Below, one piece after another: positions 40,818 through 55,009 of a DNA stretch of 64,000 nt (the first letter of the stretch is position 1; the number at the start of each line of letters is the position of its first letter). Position numbers and translations under genes: made by a program. Below the pieces are notes generated by a model. The model was not told the origin of the DNA, ran no database searches, and was given only the letters and a program-made list of their open reading frames with translations. Source of the DNA: Halorubrum sp. PV6 (lineage in GTDB: Archaea; Halobacteriota; Halobacteria; Halobacteriales; Haloferacaceae); NCBI RefSeq assembly GCF_003990725.2, contig NZ_CP030064.1:62001-126000 (forward strand), read 5' to 3'.

Positions 40818-40872
40818 CGGTATTTAAGAGCGTCAGCGAGACCGGCGTGTCGACATCTCGGACCCCCCGGCA

Positions 40873-40880
40873 CGTTTAAG
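40873..40880 (+). promoter_or_regulatory. TATA box of the candidate ncRNA
   Basis: CGTTTAAG, 22-29 bp before the first base-paired segment at 40902. No protein gene on this strand follows within promoter range other than a weak 50-codon frame. Confidence 0.5.
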
Positions 40881-40901
40881 TTGATTCCACCACTCTGTAC
40901 A

Positions 40902-41027
40902 GGTGACGCTTCGCTTGGAGGGCCGAAGCGTCAGCGGGGACCTACTGAACGACACGCTCGTGCCGCTTTTTCCTGGCACGGGCGTGCCGTTCGTCCTTAC
41001 ATCACCGCGAGCGACGCGTCTCGCGCC
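40902..41027 (+). ncRNA. Candidate structured ncRNA with three hairpins
   Basis: After a TATA box, three strong hairpins follow. Hairpin 1 (about 40904-40931) is a perfect stem GACGCTTCG/CGAAGCGTC. Hairpin 2 (about 40939-40996) pairs CACGCTCGTGCC with GGCACGGGCGTG, extended past one mismatch by GAACG/CGTTC and then GGAC/GTCC with a one-sided bulge, with a U-rich loop. Hairpin 3 (about 41007-41026) is CGCGAG/CTCGCG. The region is convergent with the dUTPase gene, so it is not a leader of it. I do not recognise it as SRP RNA, RNase P RNA or a classic C/D or H/ACA guide. A 50-codon GTG frame also spans it, but its third-position G+C is lower than that of real genes here. Confidence 0.5.
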
Positions 41028-41068
41028 CTCAAAGGCAGTGACTTCGACGCCGTGAGCCCACCTTCCCT

Positions 41069-54696: not shown

Positions 54697-54769
54697 GCCC
54701 GGATGGTGTAGTGGCCCATCATACGACCCTGTCACGGTCGTGACGCGGGTTCAAATCCCGCTCCGGGCG
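54697..54769 (+). tRNA. tRNA-Asp (GTC), copy 1
   Basis: A 73-nt tRNA. Acceptor GCCCGGA / TCCGGGC, discriminator G. Anticodon stem CGACC/GGTCG encloses the loop CTGTCAC, anticodon GTC. T-arm GCGGGTTCAAATCCCGC. CCA not encoded. A TATA box lies about 30 bp upstream. It is followed after 30 bp by a second, identical tRNA. Confidence 0.97.
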
Positions 54770-54799
54770 TCCCCACGTTTCCGGGGTGAGTCGCTGTTT

Positions 54800-54872
54800 G
54801 CCCGGATGGTGTAGTGGCCCATCATACGACCCTGTCACGGTCGTGACGCGGGTTCAAATCCCGCTCCGGGCG
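54800..54872 (+). tRNA. tRNA-Asp (GTC), copy 2
   Basis: Identical to the tRNA at 54697-54769 and offset by 103 bp. There is no separate TATA box in the 30-bp gap, so both are probably cut from one transcript. Confidence 0.97.
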
Positions 54873-55009
54873 TTTCTGTCACTGCCAACCGACGAGCGAA
54901 GCGAGCCGACACCGTCGGCGACGAACTCCTGCTCAGGGATTTGAATCTGAGGACGAGCGAACGCAGCGAGCGAAGTCCTCCGGGTTCAAATCCCGCTCCG
55001 GGCGTTTCT
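54873..55009 (+). repeat. tRNA-Asp 3'-end copy behind the tandem pair
   Basis: Positions 54981-55009 repeat 29 bases of the second tRNA-Asp end plus trailer (CGGGTTCAAATCCCGCTCCG then GGCGTTTCT). The spacer (54873-54980) contains an inverted T-arm remnant (GGGATTTGAATCT) and several GAGCGAAGCGAG-type stretches. Same design as at tRNA-Phe, -Pro and -Arg. Confidence 0.85.

Follow-up and report, generated by a model that had tools for sequence, protein, structure and literature searches.

The window analysed here is a 64,000-nt stretch of the Halorubrum sp. PV6 genome. Between two convergent protein-coding genes, it holds a short intergenic space with the features listed below; the element described in the following paragraphs lies on the forward strand.

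Left neighbour, + strand: gene for a CBS-domain protein, convergent with the right neighbour
40867..40880, + strand: BRE-like CCGGCACG and then a TATA element, TTTAAG (40875-40880), 28 nt upstream of the predicted start
40903..~40998, + strand: predicted non-coding RNA, copy A, about 95 nt, from the conserved block and covariance-model matches
40904-40913/40924-40933, + strand: hairpin 1, stem UGACGCUUCG/CGAAGCGUCA, 9 perfect pairs or 10 counting the outer U-A
40914..40923, + strand: apical loop of hairpin 1, CUUGGAGGGC, with GGAGG at 40917-40921; UGGAGGG constant
40933..40942, + strand: near-invariant linker between the hairpins, AGCGGGGACC, from alignment A1 and linker counts
40947-40964/40975-40992, + strand: hairpin 2, 18 positions, with U-rich loop GCUUUUUCCU; pair changes on both sides
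41006-41011/41020-41025, + strand: third hairpin, CGCGAG/CTCGCG, 6 bp; enriched at genus level only
40903..41055, + strand: 50-aa open reading frame with a GTG start, not accepted as a gene (frame broken, start codon lost)
Right neighbour, - strand: dCTP deaminase/dUTPase-family gene (dcd), with an aconitase gene beyond

The original prediction, which was made from the DNA letters, had described a TATA box followed by a 9-bp perfect hairpin and then by an 18-bp hairpin carrying a single mismatch and a U-rich loop, between convergent CBS and dUTPase-family genes, and all of this is present as described; in hairpin 2 of the window copy the mismatch is an A.C, and there is also one U.G pair. The three stable hairpins that it had named likewise all exist, but only hairpins 1 and 2 belong to the conserved RNA, the third lying past its likely 3' end. 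The locus folds at -57.2 kcal/mol, compared with -43.4 +/- 3.7 kcal/mol for shuffled sequences (z -3.8), and none of 200 shuffles was as stable. Because the opposite strand folds equally well, the strand is given by the promoter and not by the folding. In all 156 unique upstream regions of copies with an intact core, the distance from the start of the TATA element to GTGACGC is 27 or 28 nt; the promoter consensus across these loci is CCGGTACNTTTAAGT, and conservation is absent farther upstream. The start of the RNA was set by the TATA spacing, to within a few nucleotides, and the 3' end by the point at which conservation stops together with a short U-run (UCCUU), both ends thus being predicted ones. 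We infer from these features that the RNA is transcribed, and transcription should start at, or a few nucleotides from, the base of hairpin 1. Elsewhere in the window, we noted two tandem tRNA-Asp (GTC) genes at 54697-54873.

A BLAST comparison with 59 relatives detected the element in 54 of them (44 of the 46 high-quality genomes), and the segment 40900-40942 was nearly identical between families. The host genome carries a second copy, paralog B, at C1:2194606, which is of the PadR-linked type. Further, an exact 31-mer was found in at least 119 GTDB contigs, and the matches listed include Halorubrum, Haloarcula, Natrinema, Natrialba, Natronomonas, Halobacterium, Halococcus, Halorussus, and others, the identity of the core among these contigs being by construction. 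A covariance model (R1) built from 60 sequences matched all 170 genomes of the host's family, usually with two paralogs each, and 186 of the 195 genomes of the host's order (155 of the 157 of high quality), the members outside the family usually carrying one copy. When a sample of the phylum was searched, R1 matched 52 genomes, every one of them from the host's order, and the 242 sampled genomes from outside that order gave no match. Those members of the order in which the RNA is missing fall in f2, f9, and f11, three families whose genomes are small.

Hairpin 2 differs among lineages, yet its pairing persists. When RNAalifold was run on the whole of alignment A1, it recovered hairpin 1 alone, because hairpin 2 varies in length among lineages and is misaligned as a result, and a within-lineage alignment was then used for hairpin 2. 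In this set of 20 Halorubrum-type copies, seven of the nine varying pairs of hairpin 2 had changed on both sides; none of 500 shuffles reached any observed measure, and slid controls scored far lower. Across 197 copies, which include 130 distinct 5' arms, the stem score of hairpin 2 was at least 11 in 138 copies (compared with 2 of 150 shuffles), and UUU occurred in the loop of 177. In most copies the stem of hairpin 1 does not vary at all, and these copies are thus uninformative on its structure; the diverged extra copies, however, have compensated stem changes, from UUCG/CGAA to UCUG/CAGA or UCCG/CGGA. Despite the varying stem and loop length, UGGAGGG is retained in all genuine copies, and the loop varies in length only 5' of GGA (CUU, UCU, CUUU, UCUU, UU, and others). 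The linker is almost as constant as this part of the loop. At the position of the third hairpin, a perfect stem of at least 6 bp was seen in 13 of 40 Halorubrum-type copies, compared with 5% of shuffles, and we rejected it as part of the RNA, given its position beyond the likely 3' end and its enrichment in only part of the genus. This hairpin (41006-41025) might serve the convergent dcd gene.

The window copy represents the Halorubrum type, located beside dcd and the aconitase gene, and has no PadR neighbour; in other genera of the host's family, the second copy is located elsewhere (L209 and L212). In 96 loci, the RNA is followed on its own strand by a PadR-family gene (~92 aa). This gene has its own TATA element, which precedes the ATG by ~40-50 nt and lies hundreds of nucleotides downstream of the RNA, and a search for consistent complementarity between the RNA and the PadR leader found none. 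Between the TATA element and the ATG, the PadR leaders (L208, L213, L134, and others) contain a conserved CGACAGTAA-like word, which resembles an operator, perhaps for PadR autoregulation. Further, a conserved ~48-aa protein (MRSEDEIREQYEFLREQLDDEEM...EEEHM) without a Pfam match is encoded just upstream of the PadR-linked copy in several genera (L002, L210, and L213). The diverged extra copies are found on plasmids and in genus g34, beside the gene for a ~325-aa phrog_35116 protein (weak DUF2800), and in L269, L271, L272, L274-L276, L278, and L282 a gap of 107-128 nt separates the RNA from that gene, with the RNA upstream and the two in divergent orientation. Copies linked in this way occur in pHLAC01 of Halorubrum lacusprofundi (L271), in g34, and in G388, and a TRAM-domain protein follows the phrog_35116 gene in several loci. 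The phrog_35116 protein itself is present on 69 haloarchaeal plasmid records, and we rejected the idea that RNA and plasmid protein form a constant module because 12 other phrog_35116 plasmid loci are without the RNA; the link is lineage-specific.

We considered whether the conserved block could be something other than an RNA gene. The GTG at 40903 sits at the predicted RNA start, haloarchaea commonly have leaderless mRNAs (PMC3986360), and the two loop changes that turn CGCTTG into CGTCTG in paralog B are synonymous in the GTG frame, all of which would suit a leaderless small-protein gene. However, a single extra loop U in many genomes (g31, g34, g36, and some Halobacteriaceae) shifts the frame while the downstream nucleotides are unchanged, and the start codon, present in 43 of 53 unique copies, is missing in the other 10. 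A protein gene is therefore extremely improbable, and the conserved 50-residue peptide that the original prediction had set against its own reading fails on the frame-shifting insertion and the loss of the start codon. That the block is a DNA element, a terminator, or a leader of the PadR gene is also very unlikely: inverted repeats do occur as DNA features, both strands of the locus fold equally well, and PadR lies downstream on the same strand in the 96 loci mentioned above, but the fixed promoter and the constant loop and linker poorly fit a terminator or a DNA palindrome, and a PadR leader or riboswitch was rejected because PadR has its own TATA element and is absent beside the window copy.

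None of 4227 Rfam 15 families gave a match at the gathering score at the locus or at either copy, the best permissive match scoring 19.5 bits where the cut-off is 45, and a text search of the literature with the letters of the core sequence found no relevant paper. Box C/D sRNAs are marked by the boxes RUGAUGA and CUGA, and this class was rejected because no such boxes occur among the invariant columns of A1 and no Rfam model matched. Archaeal RNase P RNA and SRP RNA are, like the window RNA, non-coding RNAs conserved throughout the class, but both are encoded elsewhere in the host genome. Bacterial RNAs of the CsrB/RsmY type share with the window RNA a GGA in a hairpin loop but have several such loops, whereas the window RNA has one. 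CsrA is a known binder of GGA loops, and a CsrA sponge was rejected because the CsrA gene was absent from all 20 relatives searched.

Because the element is nearly universal in the order, has a fixed promoter, covaries, and contains no conserved open reading frame, we conclude, with a probability of about 0.95, that the locus is an independently transcribed gene for a structured non-coding RNA, one of two paralogs in the host and a member of a haloarchaea-wide family. This agrees with the original prediction of a new structured RNA with its own promoter and no resemblance to common RNAs: the TATA element keeps its spacing at every one of the unique loci, Rfam is without a match, and the compensatory changes that were proposed as a check are found in both main stems, in 7 of 9 varying pairs of hairpin 2 and in the diverged copies of hairpin 1. 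We class it as a new RNA family within a known kind of non-coding RNA, unusual in its class-wide constancy and its paralogy. The RNA has a nearly frozen core of ~40 nt and occurs in 155 of the order's 157 high-quality genomes; it is thus probably one of the basic components of the cell, overlooked by annotation and by Rfam, and it is amenable to deletion and purification in tractable laboratory haloarchaea.

The RNA may match an unnamed entry in existing lists of Haloferax volcanii sRNAs. PMC10927574, citing Babski 2011, describes HVO_2908s and H3.2 as intergenic sRNAs conserved between Hfx. volcanii and Hbt. salinarum, and in being intergenic and conserved both resemble the window RNA. HVO_2908s is located near HVO_2906 (TrmJ). 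In g31 genomes, which carry the window RNA, TrmJ lies ~41-43 kb from the PadR-linked copy and is not near the other copy; identity with HVO_2908s is thus unsupported by the neighbourhood, and HVO_2908s is probably a different RNA. With this identity dropped, the site that CdrS binds between HVO_2907 and HVO_2910 (PMC8406309) no longer served as a clue. Some abundant H. volcanii sRNAs, in the study of sRNA_60 and sRNA_61, are ribosome-associated and non-coding, and sRNA_61 is described there as chromosomal, 111 nt long, very abundant, ribosome-associated, and non-coding, its open reading frame having no stop codon (PMC12482152). By this description, sRNA_61 is a possible match to the window RNA. 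Of 27 haloarchaeal sRNAs studied, 22 were confined to H. volcanii (PMC3956466), and the window RNA contrasts with the mostly species-specific haloarchaeal sRNAs studied so far.

Because loop and linker are constant and the remainder of the RNA mainly keeps its pairing, we consider it likely that the RNA works in trans by way of the linker and its invariant loop, UGGAGGGC, and that hairpin 2 serves as a stabilising or loading domain. GGAGG is the core of the Shine-Dalgarno (SD) sequence, and we tentatively propose, as our best specific candidate, that the mechanism is translational, with the loop GGAGG pairing with the CCUCC tail of 16S rRNA. Hairpin 1 would present its SD-like GGAGG to this tail, the RNA would thereby associate with 30S subunits, and the bound RNA would mask or gate the anti-SD sequence; such masking would demand that the RNA be nearly as abundant as the ribosomes. 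The host 16S rRNA has the 3' end GGATCACCTCCA, and nowhere in this rRNA is there a longer complement of the loop than TGGAGG at the 3' tail; the loop matches the tail over 5-6 nt, and over 6 nt in the host. A 6-nt match somewhere in 16S rRNA was reached by 82% of shuffled loops and is expected by chance, and the argument, which was framed after the match had been seen, thus rests on the place of the match and on its constancy. The flanks of GGAGG do not lengthen the usual SD complement (GGAGGUGA), and the computed energy for opening the loop is ~2 kcal/mol, compared with -7 kcal/mol for a 5-bp duplex. SD motifs of 0-7 nt reportedly go unused in H. volcanii, whereas one of 8 nt is repressive, as though only a motif of that length had access to the anti-SD sequence (PMC3986360); that short motifs are ignored would fit a masked anti-SD sequence. 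The RNA would offer a testable answer to why haloarchaea dispense with SD initiation. Outside the anti-SD tail, pairing of the RNA with rRNA, RNase P RNA, or SRP RNA was also considered and rejected: a 9-nt match of the linker (GCGGGGACC) to the 23S+5S region and a 7-nt match to SRP RNA were the longest, and both were near chance.

Two other roles can be set beside the anti-SD mechanism. The RNA could be part of a haloarchaea-specific ribonucleoprotein in which a protein recognises the loop and linker, with the RNA as a scaffold, a sponge, or a housekeeping part, a possibility that we rate about as highly as the anti-SD mechanism, but which names no partner. Both single-stranded parts and most of the sequence of stem 1 are frozen beyond what mere pairing needs, as expected for a protein site; the U-rich loop, seen in 177 of the 197 copies, could suit an Sm-like (Lsm) protein; and in some loci a TRAM-domain protein is encoded close to the diverged copies on plasmids. 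Against this, no protein partner for the RNA was found, the TRAM association is inconstant, and CsrA, as noted, is absent from the relatives searched. We rate it as slightly less probable that the RNA is a conventional trans-acting sRNA that pairs with one or more mRNAs via loop or linker, even though its G-rich loop and linker are exposed and constant and archaeal sRNAs that act on mRNAs are known, e.g. sRNA162 (PMC3510493) and sRNA132 (PMC6560208). Such extreme constancy is unusual among haloarchaeal sRNAs (PMC3956466), the neighbouring PadR leader offered no pairing site, and the loop complement GCCCTCCA is not rare in genome G000, and the count of this word pinpoints no target. Across the whole of this genome, GCCCTCCA occurs at 172 sites, compared with 347 for the reversed control word, a deficit that could reflect avoidance or composition and codon effects only.
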